NCBI GenBank assembly: GCA_022592445.1
Contig: JABYQR010000003.1
Coordinates: 372,001-436,000, forward strand
DNA: 64,000 nt
Source: Cytidiella melzeri
Lineage: Eukaryota; Basidiomycota; Agaricomycetes; Polyporales; Irpicaceae
Direction of reading: 5' to 3'
The position numbers were made by a program, and so were the translations under genes. Of this stretch, positions 8,811 through 29,092 are shown in pieces (positions within the stretch are counted from its first letter, which is position 1; every line of letters begins with the position of its first letter). The notes beneath the pieces are model-generated. The model worked only from the letters and a program-made list of their open reading frames with translations. It had not been told where the DNA came from and did no database searches.

Positions 8811-9244
8811 TGTCACGAACATGCACACTTTTTCCCTTTCTTTTCCTTTTAATTTCTTTATCTTATCTTATCGATGGTACATGGCTACTGCATGTGATCA
8901 AGTGCATGTGACAGACTGGTCACATGATCATAGAAGGTGCTGGAACATTGTAGAACATCGCACCATAGCACACCATACGTTCCCACGGCAGTGTTAGGAG
9001 TACAGACCCGGTACCAGGGGTCCTTGTCTGAGATGTATATAAACCCACCCTGTAGCTCCCTAAAGACCTCAGATTCTACCTCCTGGTCTTTAGCTCATTG
9101 TCAGCTGATCCCTCGTCGTCGTGTCTCCACTCCTCCTCATCACCTATACTCCTGTCGTCATCGTCCACGCGAGTTCGCTCGTCGTTCCTCCTCCCCTCGT
9201 CGTCACTCCCTCGCTCTTCATAGAGTTGGGTTGTGTTCCTGACA
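8811..9244 (+). repeat. TE-B 5' LTR (434 bp)
   Basis: Starts TGTCACGAAC and ends TTCCTGACA, the canonical TG...CA. It contains a TATA box (9036-9043). It is followed directly by TTAGGTAGAATC, the expected primer-binding position; the TE-E LTR is followed by the similar TTAGGTCAAGAT, so TTAGGT may be part of a shared primer site. Confidence 0.97.
9036..9043 (+). promoter_or_regulatory. TATA box in TE-B 5' LTR
   Basis: TATATAAA within GATGTATATAAACCC, well placed for a transcript starting about 30 bp downstream and covering ORF0-gag-pol. The same box lies in the 3' LTR at 15717-15724. Confidence 0.7.
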
Positions 9245-9339
9245 TTAGGTAGAATCTCCGTACGCTCGCCTGGACGTCGCGCAACCGCATAAATTCCCTT
9301 TCCCCAAAGTTTATAAAAGTTTAGTCCCCCCGGTTTACC

Positions 9340-10070
9340 AGTACGTTGTATTGGCCCGAACCTTTGATCCTACATCTCATTTCGTGGTTATAGTGCCCAA
9401 GGACGTACGCATTCGTCGCCGCATACCCGAGTCCTTCTTTGAGGCTCGTCGAGAACTACGCGAGCAAGGACGTCCTCGTCTCTACACAGAAAAGGATCTT
9501 GAAGCCATCGTATCCTACGTCTCACGCCGCCCTCACTACCATCCCCTGGGCACCAGGCTTCCTGCTTTCGACCACGAAAAGTTTGCTCGTGACAACGAGT
9601 CCATCAAGGAACGTGCATGCACAGAACGCGCGCAAACCCTCGCGGAGCGAATTGAGAAACCGTCTCTCAAGGACCGCGTCTCCCAGGCACCCCCGCCACC
9701 TCGCCCAGACGCACAAAAACCTGTGACGCTCGATTTCCACAAGTTTTCCATCAAGGACCAAGTCGGCATCCTCAAGCCGAAGATTGAGGCCACTACCAGA
9801 CGCCTCAAGATCCTGATCGAACTCACTCGCGACCGCAACGACTCACAGGTTAAATCAGTCCTGTTACTCAACGACAAACTTCTGTACCTCACAGAACACA
9901 CGGAGGAAGTACTCTCCACGCGCACGCCTGCCCAGCTCAAAGCACTGAACTGGGGCTTGCAATCAGTGGGACAGATCAACTTCACGCAATTGCGCAAGAG
10001 GTTGACGGAGGTTACGAGTCGAGTTGCTTTTGTAGCGGACGGAGGATACTTTGAGAAACTTCCTTTGTAG
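9340..10070 (+). CDS. TE-B ORF0, spliced start codon, unknown function
   Basis: The reading frame 9394-10070 is open but contains no ATG. Splicing a 53 bp intron (9341-9393, GTACGT...TTATAG) joins the A at 9340 to TG at 9394 and makes an ATG, giving MPKDVRIRRRIPESFF... of 225 residues. The protein is basic and helical: an N-terminal segment with LYTEKDLEAIVSYVSRR, a proline-rich linker (PPPPRPDAQKP), then a helical C-terminus. TE-E carries a homologue with the same spliced start and matching segments (YTEKELKAIASYV; a DF-K...QD segment; a C-terminal WGL...F.LR). I know no named family. It ends in tandem stops TAG TAA, after which gag continues in the same frame. Confidence 0.7.
9341..9393 (+). 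other. 53-bp intron splitting the ORF0 start codon (TE-B)
   Basis: Donor GTACGT directly follows CCA; acceptor TTATAG directly precedes TGCCCAAGG. Removal makes CCATGCCC. Length and borders match the host's introns. The homologous intron of TE-E (28242-28310, minus) splits its start codon at the same place. Inferred from sequence only. Confidence 0.7.
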
Positions 10071-10073
10071 TAA

Positions 10074-11531
10074 ATAGCAATCATTGAGTGCGATAATCAT
10101 TTCCACGTCTTTGATCCCGACGATCTTCAGGACTGTTACGATAACGAAGAGGACCACGCATATATTGAAATCTGCGAACAACAGCCGTGTCCAAATCAAA
10201 ATCAAAAGTTTGTAGTATCCCGTCATTTCAGAGAAGGACAACGATACCGTGGATACGTAGCTTGCGATAACAGTCAAATACCGTTGATTGTTGGAGTTCC
10301 TGAAGAAGTCGAGGTCAATACCAGTTTAGTTGTACCGGAAAACCCACCGGCTCCACCAGACGATACCCTCATTATTCCTGATCCCATCATTCCCGAAACC
10401 ATACCGGAAATCCCACCGGTAACTCCTGAAGCGCCCACCGTCGTCCCCATCAATTCCGCACCTGTCACGATGACAACACCCGCAGTCGATCCTGCCTTGA
10501 TTGCAGCCATTGTAGCTGCAGTTACACAAGCAATGCCAAGACCGCAAGTCACGGTCAACAATAACGACACCAAGCCCGATAGATACAAGGGCGAACATGG
10601 CCGTGACTTAGAACGGTTCTTGTCACAATGCGAGGCTTACTGGGTGACCGCCAGTATTGCCGATGAAAGAACCAAGGTCCTGACAGCAATCTACCGGTTG
10701 TCAGAAAAGGCCGCCCAATGGGCAATACCGGTCACGGATCATATGGCTGACCACAACGGTAACTTGCCGGCCAACCTCGATACCTGGGCCAAGTTTAAAA
10801 CTGAGCTCAAGAAGTACTTCGGCGATGCAACGCCCGAAGATACTGCTATCCGTGAGTTGGAGAAGCTCTGTGGAGCTGAGAAGAAGGAGAAGAACGCGCG
10901 TGACGTAGGAACATATGTCACAGACTTCCAATCCTACGTGGGTCGCATCTCCGGATTAAGCGACAAGGACAAGGAGATCCGCTTCATCAAGGGCCTTCCA
11001 GAGTACATCTATGGTAGATTGGCAACTGCCGAAGCTCCGCCAACGAACTATCAGGGGTGGATTGATAGGTCTCTGAAAATGGCGGCTGCGTATGCCCGCA
11101 TCAGAGAAACAACGGAGAAGAAAATTCCGTCTGTTCCCTCGTCGACCACGTCGAGACCTACTCAGTCCCAGCCCCGGTTTACTCCGGTTCCTCGCGCTTC
11201 CAACGGTCCGGTCCCTATGGAGGTTGACGCCTCCAAGATGCAACAAGGTCGGCGGTGTTATAACTGCCAGGAACTTACAACGGATCCCAGTCACATCGCA
11301 CGCACGTGCACCAAGCCTGCAGTTCCTCGTCCACCTCCTCGTGGACCACGTGTAGCTGCTACCAATGAGGAGGCATCTTCTTCTCGGGCCGAAGAAAAGA
11401 AGCCTGAGAAGGAAGAAGCGTCAAACTCGTCGGGAGTGTCGGAAGTAACACTCAAAGCCGTGCTAGGAGAACTGGAGAAGTTAAGGGCGGAGAACGCCGA
11501 CCTCAAGAAGAGACTTGAGGAGGGTTTTTGA
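10074..11531 (+). CDS. TE-B Gag, in frame with ORF0 after two stops
   Basis: Capsid/nucleocapsid precursor of the retrotransposon particle. The frame is open from just after TAG TAA (10068-10073) to TGA at 11529-11531. The first ATG is only at 10470, yet the upstream part (CYDN...ICEQQPCPN) is conserved in TE-E, so translation must cover it by readthrough, reinitiation or splicing. Features in order: a Pro-rich segment with many IPE repeats, a capsid-like core (RYKGEHGRDLERFLSQCEAY ... FKTELKKYF), an expanded zinc knuckle CYNC-x8-H-x4-C near 11257-11310 (usual spacing is x4), and a C-terminal coiled coil (LGELEKLRAENADLKKRLE). It overlaps pol by 4 nt in the -1 frame. Confidence 0.85.
   Translation: MAIIECDNHFHVFDPDDLQDCYDNEEDHAYIEICEQQPCPNQNQKFVVSRHFREGQRYRGYVACDNSQIPLIVGVPEEVEVNTSLVVPENPPAPPDDTLIIPDPIIPETIPEIPPVTPEAPTVVPINSAPVTMTTPAVDPALIAAIVAAVTQAMPRPQVTVNNNDTKPDRYKGEHGRDLERFLSQCEAYWVTASIADERTKVLTAIYRLSEKAAQWAIPVTDHMADHNGNLPANLDTWAKFKTELKKYFGDATPEDTAIRELEKLCGAEKKEKNARDVGTYVTDFQSYVGRISGLSDKDKEIRFIKGLPEYIYGRLATAEAPPTNYQGWIDRSLKMAAAYARIRETTEKKIPSVPSSTTSRPTQSQPRFTPVPRASNGPVPMEVDASKMQQGRRCYNCQELTTDPSHIARTCTKPAVPRPPPRGPRVAATNEEASSSRAEEKKPEKEEASNSSGVSEVTLKAVLGELEKLRAENADLKKRLEEGF
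11522..11531 (+). promoter_or_regulatory. Programmed -1 frameshift site, gag to pol (TE-B)
   Basis: In the gag frame the end reads GAG GGT TTT TGA. This contains G GGT TTT, a perfect X XXY YYZ slippery heptamer (X=G, Y=T, Z=T), directly before the stop. A -1 slip puts ribosomes on TTG ATT CGG, exactly where the pol frame is open. I did not identify a downstream pseudoknot by eye. Confidence 0.75.
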
Positions 11532-14500
11532 TTCGGGCCGTGATTCGAGCTGCGCAAGCACGTGCCCCACGTATACCATGTAACAATAGATTTTCCGTAC
11601 TCGCGTCTGATGTATTAGAGACTGGATCTGAATCGGAACATTTTCACGTACCCATCACAGTTTCAGGAGTGCGGAGATCTAAAGAAGTCGCAGCAATGAT
11701 TGATAGTGGAGCCTCAACGCTATTCATTCATAAACGGTTTGTTCGAGAGCATCGTATCAGAACCCGGAAGTTGAAACAACCCATTCCGGTGTACAACATA
11801 GACGGAACCCCAAATCGAGACGGGGCTATTGACGAAGTTGCCATTCTCAATATGAGGATAGGGGACCATGAGGAGAGGACCATCTTCACGGTCACTGATA
11901 TTGGACCCGAAGACGTAATTATAGGAATCGATTGGTTGCGGTATCATAACCCCACCATTGATTGGTACGAAGGCATCATCAGGATGGATGGATGTCCTGA
12001 TGCATGTAAACCCAGGCAACGGGTTGATGAAGCGAGAGAGGCTGCAGCTAAGAGAACAGCTGAGCCTAAACGGAAGAAGAGAACTCCGGGATTACAGAAA
12101 GTTGTGGAACAGCTTCCGTACTTGCCGGTGGATACGGAGGAGGCCGAAGAAGACATCGAGGAAACCACGGAAGGTTCAGGAAGTTTGGATGGGGCCGAAT
12201 TGCCGAAGTTACAGGCACAGGCCACTACTCAGCTCGGTGGAAAAGGAACTCCCCGACGCATTGTACGTACACGTCCGACACCTATGATACAGGAAGGCGA
12301 ACGCCTGTTCACTCTAGCGGGATACACATACTCTAGTGAACTAGCTGAGGTCGAGAACCGGGTTAAACCAGTCAAAACCTTTGAGGAGATGGTACCTGAA
12401 CAATATCGTCAACATGCTCACATTTTCTCTGAAACGGAATCTCAACGACTGCCAGAACACAAGTCGTACGACCATGCAATTGAGTTAGTTCCGGAGGCAA
12501 AAGGATTCCATGCAAAGGTTTACCCGCTGTCACACCCTGAGCAAGAAGAGCTTGATAAGTTTATCCGAGAGAACCTAGAGAAAGGGTACATTCGACCGTC
12601 GAAATCCCCAATGGCGTCACCCTTCTTCTTTGTCAAGAAAAAGGATGGAAAGTTACGCCCAGTGCAGGATTACCGGAAGTTGAACGAAGTCACTATCAAA
12701 AACAGGTATCCACTGCCGTTGATCTCCGAACTCATGGATAGATTGCGCGGTGCTAAGTTCTTCACTAAGCTGGACGTCAGATGGGGGTACAATAACGTCC
12801 GCATCAAGGAAGGCGATGAACACAAAGCTGCATTTGTCACCAACCGAGGACTGTTTGAACCTACGGTCATGTTCTTTGGTCTTACCAATTCCCCGGCCAC
12901 ATTCCAGAACATGATGAACGACATCTTTGCTGATCTTATTGCTGAAGGCAAGGTCACCGTCTACCTAGATGATATCCTCATCTATTCCAAGGAGATCTCC
13001 AAACACCGCGAGGTGGTACATGAAGTTCTGAGACGGCTCAGACAACATGATCTGTTTCTTAAACCGGAGAAATGCGAATTTGAGCGTTCAGAGACAGAAT
13101 ATCTTGGTGTTATCATTGGTCACAATCAGTTACGCATGGACCCTGTCAAAGTAAAGGCAGTGGCTGAGTGGCCTGTACCGCAGAATGTCTCCGATATTCG
13201 CCGATTCCGTGGGTTTGCAAACTTCTACCGGAGATTCATCAAAGACTTCGGAAAAATATGTAACCCTTAGACCGTCTCACGGGCAAGGTTCCTTGGAAAT
13301 GGGGCCCTGAAGAACAGTCGGCGTTTGATGAACTCCGCCGACAATTTGTGGAAGCGCCGGTGTTGGCAATGTGGAGTTTTGATAGACCCACACGTTTGGA
13401 AACGGATGCATCCGGGTATGCAATGGGAGGGGTATTGGAACAACAAGCCGAAGACGGCACGTGGCATCCAGTAGCCTATCGGTCTGAAGGCATGACTGAG
13501 ACTGAACGAAACTATGAGATCTACGACCGAGAACTCATGGCAATTGTACGAGCCCTTGAAGACTGGCGTCATTACTTGGAAGGGCTACCAGAGAAATTCC
13601 CTATCTTCTCTGACCACAAGAACCTCGAGTACTGGAAGACAGCTCGTAACTTGACACGCCGTCAAGCACGTTGGTCGTTGTTCCTCTCACGTTTTAACTT
13701 TGAAATCATTCCGAAGCCCGGAAAGTCAATGGGAAAGTCGGATTCTATGTCCAGGCTAGGCCAACACGAGGTCAAGGACGAAGAAGATAATCTATCACGA
13801 ATAGTCCTAGGACCAGAGGTCTTCCGAGCCGCTGCTTCTCAACGGGGGCAAGCTAGCGTACAACCAGACAGAGACCTGTTAAAACGTATCCGTGAATGTT
13901 CTCTGCGAGAGACTGAAGTGGCAGAAGCACTTGCCAAAGTCAAGAAACTCGGACCTCGTCTTCTTAGTCGGGGACTTGAAGAGTGGAACGTGGAGAACGG
14001 GCTGTTATTGTTCCGGGGAAAAGTTTATGTCCCTAAAGATGACGAAATCCGAAAGGAACTGGTTCGGAGACATCATGACTTACCCGCCGCCGGACATCCA
14101 GGCAGGTACAAGACACTGGAACTGCTATCTCGGAACTACTGGTGGCCCAGCATGACACGCTTTGTCAATGATTATGTAGACACATGTGACACCTGTCAAA
14201 GAACGAAGACGTACCCCGCTCCACCACGCGGTCCACTCAATCCACTAGAGCCGCCCAATGCTCCATGGGAAAGCGTCACCACAGACTTTATCGTCAAGCT
14301 GCCGCCATGTAAAGGATACGATTCCATCACGGTTGCAGTTGATCGAACAACCGCGCAGGTGCACTGTTATCCATCACGGGAAAGCATGAAAACCCCCGAA
14401 CACGTGCAGGATTATATTGCAAACGTGTTTCGACTCCATGGTGTACCTCGACAGATGATCTCAGACCGTGGATCAGTGTTCGCGTCCAAGTTCCTTCGTG

Positions 14501-15480
14501 CTATCTACGATGCACTCGGAGTAAAGTCGTCCATGTCCACCGCGTATCACCCTCAGACAGACGGCAAAACAGAACGTATGAACCAAGAGATAGAACAGTA
14601 TCTCCGAGTGTTCTGCTCCTTCAGACAGGATGACTGGGTAGATTGGTTACCGATTGCGGAGTTTGCGCTTAATAGCCGAGTACACTCGTCCACCGGGAAG
14701 GCTCCCTTCGAACTGATCTATGGGTATTTACCGGAATTCCAGGTGCCTTTGAACCCAGTGTCCAATGTTCCCGCAGCAGACGAACGTCTTCGAGCATTAC
14801 GAGAAGCCCAAGAAGATGCTAAAGCTGCGCTACAACTTACGGCAGAACGCATGAAACGGTTCTACGATCATGGAGTTGCAAAAGCTCCGCAGTTTGAAGT
14901 TGGTGACAAAGTTTACGTGGAACGTGAAAAACATCCCAAGGAACAGTCGGTGGCAAAGCTAGCACCAAAACGAGATGGTCCCTATGAGATCTTAGAAAAG
15001 ATTGGGGATTTGAATTACCGGGTTAAACTTACCATTCGGGACAAGCGTCACCCGGTATTCCATGTGGATAGGTTGCGACCAGCCAAGACGGCAAGTTTGG
15101 TCCCTAACCGGGAATTTCCTGAACCTGAGCCGATTGTGGTAGAAGAAGAAGAGGAGTACGAGGTAGAACAGATTCTTGATTCAAGGATCTTCGGGCGAAA
15201 GAAGGAGTTTCAGTACCGTGTTAAGTGGAAAGGATACCCAGAATCAGAAAATTCCTGGGAACCAGCCACCAACGTCACTCATGCCGATGAAGCCGTAAAG
15301 GATTTCCACAGACGACACCCAGGAGCTCCACGACCAATCGCTGCATCTCTATTCTTGGCAATGAATTTCCGACCAATTAATGAGAATTTTGAGAAGCTAC
15401 CTTCAGAAACTCTACGACGCGTATCCTTGTGGGAAGACGGAAAAGACTCAACTCCTGCCTTCCGGAGAAAAGGCCTTTAG
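11528..15480 (+). CDS. TE-B Pol polyprotein, one frameshift
   Basis: Protease (AAMIDSGASTLFI, about 11690), RT with PVQDYRKLN, FTKLDVRWGYNNVRI and the intact YLDD box (about 12962), RNase H (TRLETDASGYAMGG; YEIYDREL; FSDHKNLEYW), integrase with HH-CC zinc domain (HHDLPAAGHPG ... CDTCQ), DDE residues (TTDFIVK, ISDRGSVFAS, TDGKTERMNQEIEQ), GPY module (RDGPYEILEKIG) and a C-terminal chromodomain (YEVEQILDSR ... YRVKWKGYPESENSWEP, about 15160-15300). The frame 11528-13270 stops at TAG; the same protein continues one frame away from 13267, so a single base is missing in the CCCTT run at 13264-13268. Without it the copy would encode a complete Pol. It enters by -1 frameshift from gag. Confidence 0.93.
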
Positions 15481-15491: not shown

Positions 15492-15925
15492 TGTCACGAA
15501 CATGCACACTTTTTCCCTTTCTTTTCCTTTTAATTTCTTTATCTTATCTTATCGATGGTACATGGCTACTGCATGTGATCAAGTGCATGTGACAGACTGG
15601 TCACATGATCATAGAAGGTGCTGGAACATTGTAGAACATCGCACCATAGCACACCATACGTTCCCACGGCAGTGTTAGGAGTACAGACCCGGTACCAGGG
15701 GTCCTTGTCTGAGATGTATATAAACCCACCCTGTAGCTCCCTAAAGACCTCAGATTCTACCTCCTGGTCTTTAGCTCATTGTCAGCTGATCCCTCGTCGT
15801 CGTGTCTCCACTCCTCCTCATCACCTATACTCCTGTCGTCATCGTCCACGCGAGTTCGCTCGTCGTTCCTCCTTCCCTCGTCGTCACTCCCTCGCTCTTC
15901 ATAGAGTTGGGTTGTGTTCCTGACA
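15492..15925 (+). repeat. TE-B 3' LTR (434 bp)
   Basis: Matches the 5' LTR over 434 bp with one C/T difference near 15874. Ends TTCCTGACA and is followed by the TGCAA duplication. Confidence 0.97.
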
Positions 15926-21056: not shown

Positions 21057-24000
21057 ATCATCTACTATGATCTGTGCTGGTGGTTCTGGTATGAGGCCGT
21101 TTACTTTGTTTCCTCACACGGAGATAGCCGTTCAACATTGATTTTGTTGTGAATACAATATCCGGATTTGAGTTTGATCTGATATGTATGTTCACCGGTT
21201 TTCTGAAGAACTGTGAAAGGACCAAGCTGTCTAGGCCCTAGCTTGTCAGACTGCTGATGTACTTTGACGTTTTTAGAAGACAACCACACGAGGTCCCCTT
21301 CCTTGAAGACTGGAGTAGCTCTACGGGTGTATCCGGAAGCTTTGGCCATCTTTTCCTTAGATAGACGCGAGGCAGCTTTGGCTTCTGCTCAAACCTGTCT
21401 GAGCTTTTCTAGATGTGCGTCCAGGTTTGGCACACAACTTTGACAACCAATGGGAATGGTAAAGTCCAGTAGATACCCGTACATGACTTCAAACGGAGAG
21501 TGCTGAGTAGATGAGTTGACCCGGGAGTTGATGGCAAATTCAGCCACTGGGATGTATTCTGCCCAATCATCTTTGTTAAGACTGACTATTGTCAAGGGAC
21601 AAGTTGTCAGGTCAGAACCCCTTGGTGTAGCTACACTCAAGGTCTGATGATGGTCTAGGCCGCGCGGTTGCTGCCAAGCACAGTGGCAGACAGATGATGG
21701 TTCGATAGAAGGAATATTGATACGAAGTGGATAGACTGAGGTTCTAGCCCCATGTCTAACGGCTATTAATACATGTTGACCTAACTACTTTTGGACCAGT
21801 CCGAGGTAGTGGTAGCAAGTCGGAGAAACAGAAAGGAAGAACAATGCACAGAGAACAGCCACTACTCTGGAAAGCCAATGAGAAAAAAGACCGTCAAGGT
21901 GCAGAAACAAGAAACAATAGAAAGGGGAAACATGAGGCAGAGATCAATGGAGAAGGGGTTGAATCCAAAACAGGGGATAGGCGGGGTTGGACCCGATGGA
22001 GTGGTAACGGAGGTATGGAAAGGCCAAGGGTTGAACCAAAGCAATGGTAACCAATCGGAGTTGGGTCAGAGGTTTGAATGGACATCAGAAGGCAACTGAT
22101 AACATAATAGTCCGTGTTGAACGGAGGCGATGTGGATCAGGGAATGATGGAGGAAAGACGAGTTGGATCGTCAAGGCAATTGTAAAGAAGATAACTGATT
22201 ATCAAGGTAATTGAAGAAGTAAAGGAGAATAATAGGGTGTGAAGACCGTTTGTAACAATCTTGTCGTTGGTCAACAAAGAGTTGTAGAATCTTTTCTACC
22301 TCTTGATTGGTTCTTTCCGTTTGACCATTGGCCTGAGGGTGGTAGGCGGTAGCCATGGCGCCAGTGATGCCTAGCCGTTTGCACAATGCTTGCATGACAC
22401 GAGCTGCAAACTGGGGTCCTCTATCGGATATAAACTGTTGGGAATGCCGTGGAGCCTGAACACTTCCTTGATGTGAAGGTCGGCTATACTGTCAGCTGTG
22501 ACAGTAGACTGGGTTGGGATTACATGTGTTTGCTTGCTGTACAAGTCTGTGTACACGGCAATCATGTTGAACCCCTTACTATGTGGGAGTGGTTCGACTA
22601 AGTCTACACCAACCACCTGCCAAGGTCCGTCTGGTACTTTGATGGGCTGTATTGGGGCCACAGGGTGCTGTGCTGGTTTGGTTTGCTGACACTTGTCACA
22701 TCCGAGAACATATTGTTCTACAAATGATGCCATGCAAGGCCACCAATAATGCCGTGTGACTAGTTCCAGGGTTGCGTGTTTGCCGGGATGTCCTGCTGGT
22801 AACACATCATGGCATCGTCGTACAATCTCCCTACAACCTTCTCGATCCTTCGGAATGTACAGCTTCTCTTTGTAGTAGACCAGTCCATTGTCTTCTTCCC
22901 ACTCAAGTCCACCGTCAGTCAACTTTTGGGGTTTATCCTTCCCAAGTTTGGCTAGTCCCTGGACTACCTCTGCTTTTCGAATACTGATGTCCTTAATTTG
23001 TGACTTTAACGGATCTGATTCCAGAGTACTTGAGGCGGCTATTGTCTGGAAGTATTTGGGTTTCAGCACAACTTGTTCCTTGTTATCTGATGCATCTAGA
23101 ACCTCCAAGGTTCTGACTCAGGATAATGTGTCCCCTTGAGTAAGGGTCTTTCCGGGTTTGTGTGTTAACACAAAGTCAAACTGGCTGAGGTACAAAGACC
23201 ACCAAGCTTGTCGTCTAGACAGGTCCTGGGCGGTTCGCCAGTACTGCAGATTCTGATGATCTGTGATGATCTCGAAGGGTGTGGGTAATCCCTCCAGATA
23301 GTGATGCCAATCTTCGAGAGCTCTGATGATAGCGAGCATTTCTCGATCATAGATCTCATAGTTCCGTTCCGCTTCAGCCATAGACTGAGACTGAAATGCT
23401 ACTGGGTACCATTGTCCATCCTCTAGTTTCTGCAGTAGAACTCCTCCAGTTGCAAAGCCAGACGCATCAACTTCAATGCGTGTGGGGCGATCGGGTTCCC
23501 ATGTGACTAGAATAGGTTCCTGCGTGAACGCATCTTTGAGCATCTGAAAGGTGTTCTGCTGTGCTTCTCCCCACTTCCAAGGTTGGTCTTTCTTGGTGAG
23601 ATTGTGGAGGGGACGAGTATGCCGTGCAAAGTCCTCAATGAAACGTCAGTAGAAGTTGGCAAATCCAATGAAGCCGCATACATCACGGAGGTTCTGTGGT
23701 ACCGGCCAGTTGGTGATAGCCTCTATTTTACCCGAGTCCATACGGATTCTTCCGTTACCAATGATCAAACCTAGGTACTTGACTTGTGACTGTTCAAATT
23801 TGCATTTTTTGGGGCAAAGATACAAGTCATTGGCTTCAAGCCGAGATAGTACCTCATGAACAATTTTCCGGTGTTCTGTAATGTCTGAACTAAAGACGAG
23901 GATGTCATCTAAGTACACCAAGACCTTTCCTTCCGCAATGAGATCAGCAAAGATGGAATTCATCATTGCTTGAAACGTGGCCGGAGAGTTGGTCATGCCA

Positions 24001-27169: not shown

Positions 27170-27828
27170 TGACATGGATAGTCCAACAGAGACCGGATTT
27201 TTCCAACAATGTCACAAGTTTACAGCCTTGGGCGCCTATCTAGAGCGCTTATTTTCCGGCTAGGAGTGTTACCGGACCTAACCCTAACCCGGGTCACGTG
27301 ACATCCTGCCTTATTTATCAATAGTCCAGACCCGAACCCTAGACTCAGTCTGGAGCGGTTCCAGATCAACCTAGGCTATTGTTCTATTGTTCCTCTTCCA
27401 TTGATGGGGATTCCCCAAGGATTCCCCCAGTTCCTATTGTTCTATTGTTCCTGATGCTATTGACTATTGTTCTAATCCTATTGTTCTATGTACCCTGGTC
27501 CTTAACAGTTACTCAGGTCCTTGACAGTTACCCTGGTCCCTTATTGTTCTATTGTTACTCCAGCCCCACAGTTACTCCAGTCCCTAGTGTGGGAACTGGT
27601 GCACAGACCACCCAGACACAGTATATATAGTACCCCTTACCCTCCCTGGTTCTGCATCTTGACCTCTTCGTCATTTGCACTGCCAGTATCCGGCCTCTGA
27701 GCCTGCTTGCCTGCTTATCATCGACTTTGACCTCTTTGTCGTCGTTGGAGATCCACTTCCACTTCCACTCCCCCTCTTCTCCGCCCTTATTTAGGGTTTA
27801 GCAGTATAGCAGCAGTCGCTCCGCGACA
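27170..27828 (+). repeat. 659-bp solo LTR of the TE-E family, opposite orientation, duplication AGAGT
   Basis: Begins TGACATGGATAG and ends CTCCGCGACA, matching the TE-E 5' LTR but on the other strand. Flanked by AGAGT at 27165-27169 and 27829-27833. Contains TATATATAG near 27623. It forms an inverted repeat with 28416-29092 across a spacer of about 590 bp. Confidence 0.93.
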
Positions 27829-28241
27829 AGAGTCGGCTTTGCTGCTATAAGGGCTGCACTAGGGTTGGTAGCTGGCCGGGGTGGGAATCGTTCTGCTAGC
27901 GAGGGTTTCTTAGGAAGACTTGCCAAGGCCTCAGCTCGTGCGTGCAGTACAGGCAGCAAACTGTTTGGATTCGGCACGGAGTTTCTCAAACTCCTCTGCT
28001 GTTGGGAATCTGTGGGTAAGGGAAGAGCCCTTGGGTTTACGACAACCAACGTAGGAGGCAATAGCCTTAAGCTCCTTCTCCGTATATTTGTGACTTTTGC
28101 CACGTACGTGCTCTGCGTCAAGTTGATCAAACACAGCCTGGGGTAAGGCGCGATGGATCTGGACTTCTCGACGTGCTTGGTTCAGATCCTTGTGCAGAGG
28201 ATCTGGACGAGCAGTGAAACAAGAGTGGGATTCTTTCGGCA

Positions 28242-28310
28242 CTAAGAATCAACCACAGAAAGTGAACGAGTTAGCGATCAAGCACGTCAAGACGGACGGC
28301 AATGGCTTAC
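28242..28310 (-). other. 69-bp intron splitting the ORF0 start codon (TE-E)
   Basis: On the minus strand: donor GTAAGC after TTGAGA, branch-like GCTAAC 32 bases from the end, acceptor TTCTTAG before TGCCGAAAG. Same position relative to ORF0 as the TE-B intron. Confidence 0.7.
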
Positions 28311-28415
28311 TCTCAAACGTAGGGGGGGAATAAACTTTTTAAAACTGGGGGGACAGGAAGACTTGATCCAAGCTAAGGGCAGTCGTACCGGTAGCTGTGT
28401 GGTATCTTGACCTAA

Positions 28416-29092
28416 TGTCGCGGAGTGACTGCTGCTATACTGCTGGACCCTAAAAAAGGGCGGAGAAGAGGGGGAGTGGAAGTGAAAGTGGATCTCCAAT
28501 GATGACAACGAGGTCAAAATCAATGATAAGCAGGCAAGCAGGCTCAGAGGCCGGATACTGGCAGTGCAAATGACGAAGTTAATATCAGACTTATACTAAG
28601 TTACATTGAGTAACTCACCTGGCAGTGCAAATGACAAAGAGGTCAAGATGCAGAATCAGGGAGGGTAAGGGGTACTGTATATACTGTGGCTGGGTGGTAG
28701 TAACTGTGGGGCTGGAGTAACAATAGAACAATAAGGGACCAGGGTAACTGTCAAGGACCTGAGTAACTGTCAAGGACCAGGGTACAGAGAACAATAGAGC
28801 TAGAACAATAGAACAATAGAACAATAGAAACTGGGGGAATCCCTGGGGAATCCCTAACAATAGATAGAAGAACAATAGAACAATAGCCTAGGTTGATCTG
28901 GAACCGCTCCAGATTGAGTCTAGGGTTTGGGTCTGGACTATTGATAAATAAGGCAGGATGTCATGTGACCCAGGTTAGGGTTAGGTCTGGTAACACTCCT
29001 ATCCAGAAAATAAGTGCTCTAGATAGGCGCCTAAGGCTGTAAACTTGTGACAATGTTGGAAAAATCCGGTCTCTGTTGGACTATCCATGTCA
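28416..29092 (-). repeat. TE-E 5' LTR (677 bp)
   Basis: Reads TGACATGG ... CCGCGACA on the minus strand, followed by TTAGGTCAAG as the primer-binding position. Compared with the solo LTR copy it has an extra 61 bp segment (28558-28618) with intron borders. Right flank CCTGG; the matching duplication is lost with the 3' end. Confidence 0.9.
28558..28618 (-). other. Intron-like 61-bp segment in the LTR leader
   Basis: On the minus strand GTGAGTTACTC ... GATATTAAC ... CACTGCCAG, present in this LTR and exactly absent in the solo copy at 27170-27828. A 20 bp direct repeat (CTGGCAGTGCAAATGAC-AAG on the plus strand; 28558-28577 and 28619-28638) flanks it, so either splicing before reverse transcription or repeat-mediated deletion could explain the difference. 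Confidence 0.5.

Follow-up and report, generated by a model that had tools for sequence, protein, structure and literature searches.

The window analysed here, a stretch of 64,000 nucleotides in its entirety (Cytidiella melzeri contig JABYQR010000003.1), carries two LTR retrotransposons, TE-B on the plus strand and TE-E on the minus strand, whose sequence layout is that of self-primed, Tf1-like elements. The features of TE-B relevant to what follows are:

8811..9244, plus strand: 5′ LTR, with one mismatch in 434 to the 3′ LTR at 15492-15925
9071..9081, plus strand: self-primer AGATTCTACCT, complementary to 9247-9257 and near the putative start of R
9247..9257, plus strand: primer binding site AGGTAGAATCT, just 3′ of the 5′ LTR
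9341..9393, plus strand: intron 2, A/GTACGT...TATAG/TG (the slash marks the splice point), removal of which makes the ORF0 ATG
9394..10070, plus strand: ORF0, its TG completing the split ATG, with 224 codons after it and the stop TAG; no Pfam match
10074..10469, plus strand: ATG-free segment from ORF0 to the gag AUG, with a Cys-rich frame that is in frame with gag and shows coding constraint
10470..11531, plus strand: gag from its first ATG (Retrotrans_gag)
11519..15480, plus strand: pol, in two overlapping frames, 11519-13270 and 13264-15480

With LTRs of 434 nt differing at one base, TE-B is a young Ty3/gypsy element. Its domain order (protease, RVT_1, RT_RNaseH, rve and Chromo, i.e. integrase and then a C-terminal chromodomain), its LTRs and its 5-bp target duplication (TGCAA) are those of a Ty3/gypsy chromovirus, TE-B being the element on which the domain scan was run and the duplication sought. 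The leader of TE-E, on the minus strand, has the same layout:

28640..28649, minus strand: self-primer, with its binding site at 28404-28413
28558..28618, minus strand: intron 1, within R; its end (28558-28578) repeats the exon block 28619-28639, with 1 mismatch in 21 in the window copy
28242..28310, minus strand: intron 2, A/GTAAGC...CTAAC...TTAG/TG
27940..28241, minus strand: stop-free first part of ORF0, the window copy being broken further on

By eye, inverted leader- or LTR-like sequence seemingly lies within ORF0 of this TE-E copy (27350-27850), and foreign-looking sequence is present in its pol at about 21600-22250. Searching the genome (49.7 Mb, 731 contigs) with ORF0 uncovered a third family, C, of the same design; the aligned C and E copies of ORF0 are 32-35% identical to that of TE-B. 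The match of self-primer to binding site is perfect over 11 nt in TE-B, and extends over 10 nt in TE-E and, as judged by eye, in family C. The self-primer is presumably the 5′ end of the element RNA, the start of R and the expected RNA 5′ end being at about 9071 in TE-B, and by analogy with Tf1 (PMC7175516) TE-B would prime its own reverse transcription. A block rich in A and T, like TTTAAAAAGTTTATTCC, is present just 5′ of the intron 2 donor (about 9306-9326 in the window) and is alike in B, C and E.

The split start codon and copies that lack its intron

A sequence-only reading of the window had proposed that ORF0 of both elements acquires its start codon through removal of a short intron of 53 or 69 nt, here called intron 2. 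Its borders and both lengths are borne out. In TE-B, the A at 9340 is followed by the intron (9341-9393), TG (9394-9395) and CCC AAG GAC; in TE-E, on the minus strand, the A at 28311 is followed by the intron (28310-28242, GTAAGC...CTTAG), TG (28241-28240) and CCG AAA GAA. Both spliced junctions read ATG-CCx-AAR-GA and agree in phase and in the MPK start. The absence of a usable ATG in TE-B holds too, there being no in-frame ATG in the open stretch 9249-10070 and none in any frame from 9071 to 9616; the single ATG, at 9617, is private to this copy, within ORF0 and out of frame. Family C is arranged likewise (GACGA/GTACGT...AG/TGCCTAARGAC) with an intron 2 of 72-74 nt, as against 53 in B and 69 in E, giving an overall range of 53-74 nt.

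Conservation of donor A/GT and acceptor AG/TG, which the earlier reading had suggested be checked among relatives, is complete among the 59 distinct copies whose ORF0 is open (36 B, 9 C and 14 E), the donor being A/GTACGT or A/GTAAGC and the acceptor AG/TG in all. The set comprises copies in which the motif TGCCNAARGA is followed by an open ORF0 of more than 200 codons, with identical copies collapsed; copies with broken ORF0 (e.g. L086) and loci without the motif lie outside it. The TG of the acceptor was thereby part of the selection and the donor was not, except for L042, L043, L047 and L048, where the search pattern covered part of the donor. Among the 36 B copies, the six donor bases and AG/TG are invariant while 16 of 43 positions in the intron body vary. 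Three different exon ends precede the donor (ACCA, ACGA and GAGA), all finishing in A.

Relatives that had lost the borders and kept ORF0 were to count against the proposal, and one was encountered. It is a diverged B-like copy outside the 59-copy set (L114, C454:6920-7060; 77% identity), with both intron 2 borders mutated and an ORF0 match free of stops. Because all 59 others retain the borders, its simpler reading is as a decaying copy, yet it counts against a strict need for the borders.

If the intron is spliced and the resulting RNA reverse transcribed, genomic copies with the exact junction are to be expected, and they are present. Precise intron 2-free junctions were found in eight copies, six exact and one with a single mismatch in C, and one exact in E, which shows that splicing at the proposed borders has taken place in these two families; the genome pattern search yielded none in family B, and reversed control patterns gave 0 matches. 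Such copies are rare against the 275 C, 153 E and 129 B donor contexts found at up to 1 mismatch. All eight, when fetched, could be aligned to relatives with the intron both before and after the break. Between L089 and L080, 188+899 nt (1,087 nt) agree at every base, the 73-nt intron being all that L089 lacks; in L087 and L093 only part of ORF0 matches, and the L093 alignment ends two bases early, beside its mismatch. At C223:444937-444959 there is one more E-like junction without the intron, departing from the pattern at two positions.

In a tree with nine intron-bearing C copies, the intron-free ones occupy several places: L089 is beside L080, L092 beside L039 and L040, L088, L090 and L091 cluster, and L087 and L093 are on long branches. 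Because of that cluster, and with only nine intron-bearing copies in the tree, some intron-free copies may have spread as such. Of the 40 scored nearest matches to L091 (on C412), two are uninterrupted (itself and C408) and 38 begin at the junction (query base 39 or 46), the part upstream forming a match of its own in 36 of these. Some of the interrupted matches are as close to C412 as is C408, or closer (99% versus 98%), and for this reason the C412 and C408 losses were probably separate events. Judged from sequence, the same junction in three families together with eight precise intron losses is more than chance, and the earlier interpretation, that the start of ORF0 is conditional on host splicing, is supported, translation of ORF0 being presumed.

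ORF0 and the approach to gag

ORF0 is about 225-252 residues long. Variation across its B copies at codon positions 1, 2 and 3 is 0.025, 0.013 and 0.155; ORF0 is evidently a real coding sequence under constraint. A Pfam domain scan with TE-B ORF0 gave no match (best profile E 0.015, unconvincing), and a PDB profile search no relative of established function (best E 0.047, likewise unconvincing). The predicted model is all-helical, with mean pLDDT 78 and pTM 0.48, and by eye the N-terminal part is basic. Two protein searches, of which the second scored the 8,000 candidates sharing most words, gave 8 and 9 relatives at E <= 0.001, two of them bearing the names Irpex lacteus and Cytidiella melzeri; at the DNA level a pattern matched 4 times in contigs of prokaryote genomes and 14 times in viral ones, and none of these relatives was confirmed. 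Several homologue records start at the splice-junction site, P0008 with M where P0006 has V. The MPK starts of such records were set aside as proof of an ATG, since the starts were apparently called bacterial-style and a genomic GTG could be read as M.

Between ORF0 and gag, a Cys-rich frame without AUG shows coding constraint in B and E, in the gag frame, and is shortened or broken in C copies L079-L084. Gag starts 42-417 nt after the ORF0 stop, with distance and frame varying between copies. ORF0 and gag are in one frame in 28 of 32 B and 9 of 12 E copies; among the nine C copies frames 0, 1 and 2 all occur, and in six of these the intervening segment is only 42-116 nt. In L065, L068, L051, L014 and L027 the gag frame relative to ORF0 differs within the family, apparently through small indels past the ORF0 stop. 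ORF0 of the window TE-B ends in two stops in tandem. Since the B and E segment is constrained yet AUG-free, there may in addition be a longer Gag that starts elsewhere; a near-cognate start for the Cys-rich frame, of the type described for RTBV ORF I (AUU; PMC5902531), is possible. Inspection of the B, C and E stretches by eye for another AG/TG acceptor that, with the same donor, would make a gag start revealed none in the gag frame.

A feature that the sequence-only reading did not contain, and which is the second half of the switch proposed below, is that AUGs are evidently kept scarce on the unspliced RNA as far as gag. Within ORF0, 52 of the 59 copies are free of ATG in all frames, as are 48 from -250 to the ORF0 stop (32 of 36 B, 7 of 9 C and 9 of 14 E), and each ATG in that interval is private to one copy, with the exception of one common to two E copies. 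In the 53 copies where gag could be located, the interval from -250 to the gag ATG is free of ATG in 39 and not in 14; in 43 the gag ATG is the first after the ORF0 start. Its position is between +1011 and +1094 in B, between +770 and +981 in C, and between +1073 and +1075 in E. By contrast, 1,300-nt sliding windows (step 100) of TE-B gag-pol hold at least 15 ATGs. In E, ATGs are present near the 5′ end of R in 13 of 14 copies, within intron 1 except for one private to L051, so that RNA lacking intron 1 would be AUG-poor throughout; only with this intron spliced out would these ATGs do no harm.

Relative to a real copy, L004, 6 of 71 single-copy changes in B create an ATG as against 1 of 215 shared changes (Fisher P 0.001), an excess among private changes that bears the mark of selection against ATG in B. 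Six ORF0 homologues from other sources have no internal methionine in 1,378 residues (the count leaves out the near-duplicates P0007 and P0008, with none, and a short gene model, P0011, with one), while TE-B gag-pol has 1.7-1.9% Met. Codon-preserving shuffles of ORF0, run on 14 of the 59 copies, hand-picked among those without an ATG in ORF0, yield 0.7-2.9 ATGs per copy, and none in 2-44% of shuffles. With so few, the avoidance of out-of-frame ATGs per copy is modest, and the strength of the signal comes from methionine avoidance and the agreement across families.

A candidate splicing switch

Quite probably, splicing of intron 2 chooses the product, with spliced RNA yielding ORF0 and unspliced RNA Gag-Pol; the conserved borders, the precise intron-free copies, the coding constraint on ORF0 and the scarcity of ATG are what the DNA contributes to this reading. 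Host splicing of the 53-74 nt leader intron would join A to UG and so make the AUG of an accessory protein, ORF0. Where the intron is retained, ribosomes scanning the RNA would traverse AUG-poor ORF0 and initiate at Gag, some 1.1-1.4 kb downstream of the putative 5′ end. One pre-mRNA would then serve two mutually exclusive products, the unspliced, genomic form being for Gag-Pol and packaging, and the spliced form for ORF0. The start of ORF0 would be splice-built rather than encoded because an encoded ATG would shut off Gag on genomic RNA. Copies reverse transcribed from spliced RNA would carry the ORF0 AUG permanently, and their rarity fits the same reasoning. Retroelements have long faced the problem of using one transcript as both genome and messenger for different proteins, and this would be an economical solution. 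With hundreds of donor sites and a few natural splice products in the genome, the model is open to RNA-seq testing.

Intron 2 could instead be an ordinary 5′-leader intron that raises expression, with spliced RNA yielding ORF0 and also Gag, via reinitiation or internal entry, and AUG scarcity being incidental. The presence of a further leader intron, intron 1 in R, fits this, as does a gag start 42-417 nt past the ORF0 stop; yet reinitiation after about 225 codons is usually inefficient and would be indifferent to ATGs within ORF0, of which 52 of 59 copies have none, and the ORF0-gag distance and frame are variable. This alternative is unlikely. More improbable still is that ORF0 is the N-terminal part of Gag, reached by readthrough, frameshifting or a further splice. 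The frame shared with gag in most B and E copies, and the constraint on the intervening segment in the gag frame, are what would be expected of it, but the tandem stops in the window copy, the occurrence of all three frames among the nine C copies and the segment of 42-116 nt in six of them are not; nor was a precise loss across the ORF0 stop noticed in passing among the copies viewed. The least credible alternative, with a very low probability, has ORF0 started on unspliced RNA at a near-cognate codon, e.g. the GUG from AG/TG, making the intron irrelevant. Homologue records starting at that GTG site (P0008 with M, P0006 with V) and the open ORF0 of C454 lacking the borders are in its favor. 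It does not account for the existence of precise intron-free copies, nor for the exon base before GT: G is usual at that position of a donor, and A is intact in 59 of 59 copies, with all three exon ends finishing in it.

The preferred reading, of intron 2 as the switch between ORF0 and Gag-Pol, has a possible extension in intron 1. Among copies with R read, that intron is present within R in 32 of 36 for family B, 17 of 20 for C and 14 of 15 for E (window 28558-28649, minus strand, L040, L095-L105, L108-L113 and most B and E loci); the window TE-B (L002) is without it. The last 12, 20 or 21 bases of intron 1 repeat the exon block between self-primer and donor. Identity starts at the first base after the primer, a match one base earlier occurring in 17 of 32 B, 0 of 17 C and 0 of 14 E copies; farther upstream there are scattered single-position matches, e.g. 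at -4, -5 and -8 in B. Two E subfamilies differ in their blocks, and in 10 of 13 E copies the two occurrences of the copy's own block are identical. When intron 1 was read in the intron-free copies other than L087 and L093, four C copies (L109-L112), which came from spliced RNA since they have lost intron 2, proved to retain intron 1, as does E copy L113 with two mismatches; L088 is without either intron.

Tf1 RNA is cleaved between bases 11 and 12 (PMC7175516). The intron 1 repeat starts at just the base that such a cut would expose, an indirect hint of cleavage after the primer in these elements. With cleavage of this type, strong-stop cDNA made on spliced RNA would have the block at its end, which might let it pair with the last part of intron 1 and with exon 2 in unspliced 3′ R and copy the intron back; strand transfer would in this way keep both blocks alike. 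We infer that intron 1 is rebuilt at strand transfer. If so, it shows how an intron persists in an element copied via RNA, where introns are usually thought to be lost. Simple duplication as the origin of the repeat leaves the boundary common to three families and the matched variants unexplained. A primer binding site within intron 2, which would explain intron persistence, was discarded, the site (9247-9257) being upstream. On balance, the elements probably have a two-intron RNA switch in which intron 2 toggles between ORF0 and Gag via the only AUG, and intron 1 is removed from mRNA and rebuilt in each round, being built to survive reverse transcription.

Relation to known systems

Splice-made start codons and AUG-free ORFs traversed by scanning are each already known; their combination is unreported in the literature searched. 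That search, of titles and abstract openings with coverage of few subscription journals, turned up no fungal element described as having a start codon made by splicing, or an intron within R. Neither was a report found of a splice-made start combined with an AUG-free ORF, of such an ORF 5′ of gag, or of a self-restoring R intron.

Alternative splicing of a short intron is also a feature of BARE1 of barley, where the nearly full-length RNA so generated is for one protein, but BARE1 is of the Copia superfamily, and what its splicing creates is a stop after Gag rather than a start (PMC3735527). In another LTR retrotransposon, Cer1 of C. elegans, the accessory protein CERV comes from spliced RNA while unspliced RNA yields Gag and Pol, and CERV is needed for export of the unspliced RNA (PMC10309623). 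What is shared is the spliced/unspliced logic only, since the CERV mRNA described there has five exons, with exons 1-3 in the gag frame. By analogy with CERV, ORF0 might help to export or handle unspliced RNA, a tentative and rather doubtful suggestion.

With Tf1/sushi elements, TE-B and its relatives share a primer binding site that can pair with the start of R, i.e. with the predicted 5′ end of the element's own RNA, and, in TE-B, a chromodomain after integrase. Unlike here, the sections of PMC7175516 and PMC4600332 available make no mention of an ORF0 or leader introns for Tf1, Tf2 or Tj1; these sources do note a cryptic intron in Tf2.

RTBV and badnaviruses are pertinent as reverse-transcribing entities whose upstream ORFs are free of internal AUG and permit leaky scanning over about 900 nt, and splicing in RTBV also fuses a leader uORF to ORF IV (PMC5902531). 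An upstream ORF lacking internal AUG in any frame is what 52 of the 59 copies possess, scan-through being here predicted from sequence. The difference is that the upstream ORFs of these viruses, as described in the same source, have weak starts (AUU, or AUG in moderate context) on the same RNA, whereas the start of ORF0 is absent until splicing.

The closest precedents for the junction itself are in the errantiviruses, and they show that the earlier reading, which knew of no described Ty3/gypsy family with a spliced start codon, was mistaken on this point. In Drosophila gypsy, splicing makes the env AUG from AT/G (PMC2585583), and members of the springer subclade splice their env from an AU dinucleotide (PMC12992720), so that there too an extra ORF of a Ty3/gypsy element gets its start codon at a splice junction. 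Errantivirus env is a third ORF, and its spliced mRNA is without gag and pro-pol (PMC4276936). ORF0 does not correspond to an envelope ORF downstream of pol; it is upstream of gag, and that of TE-B is without a Pfam match. In the elements described here, removal of a leader intron of 53-74 nt joins A to TG at the start of an ORF 5′ of gag, this splice leaves gag-pol in place, and there is an AUG-poor zone.
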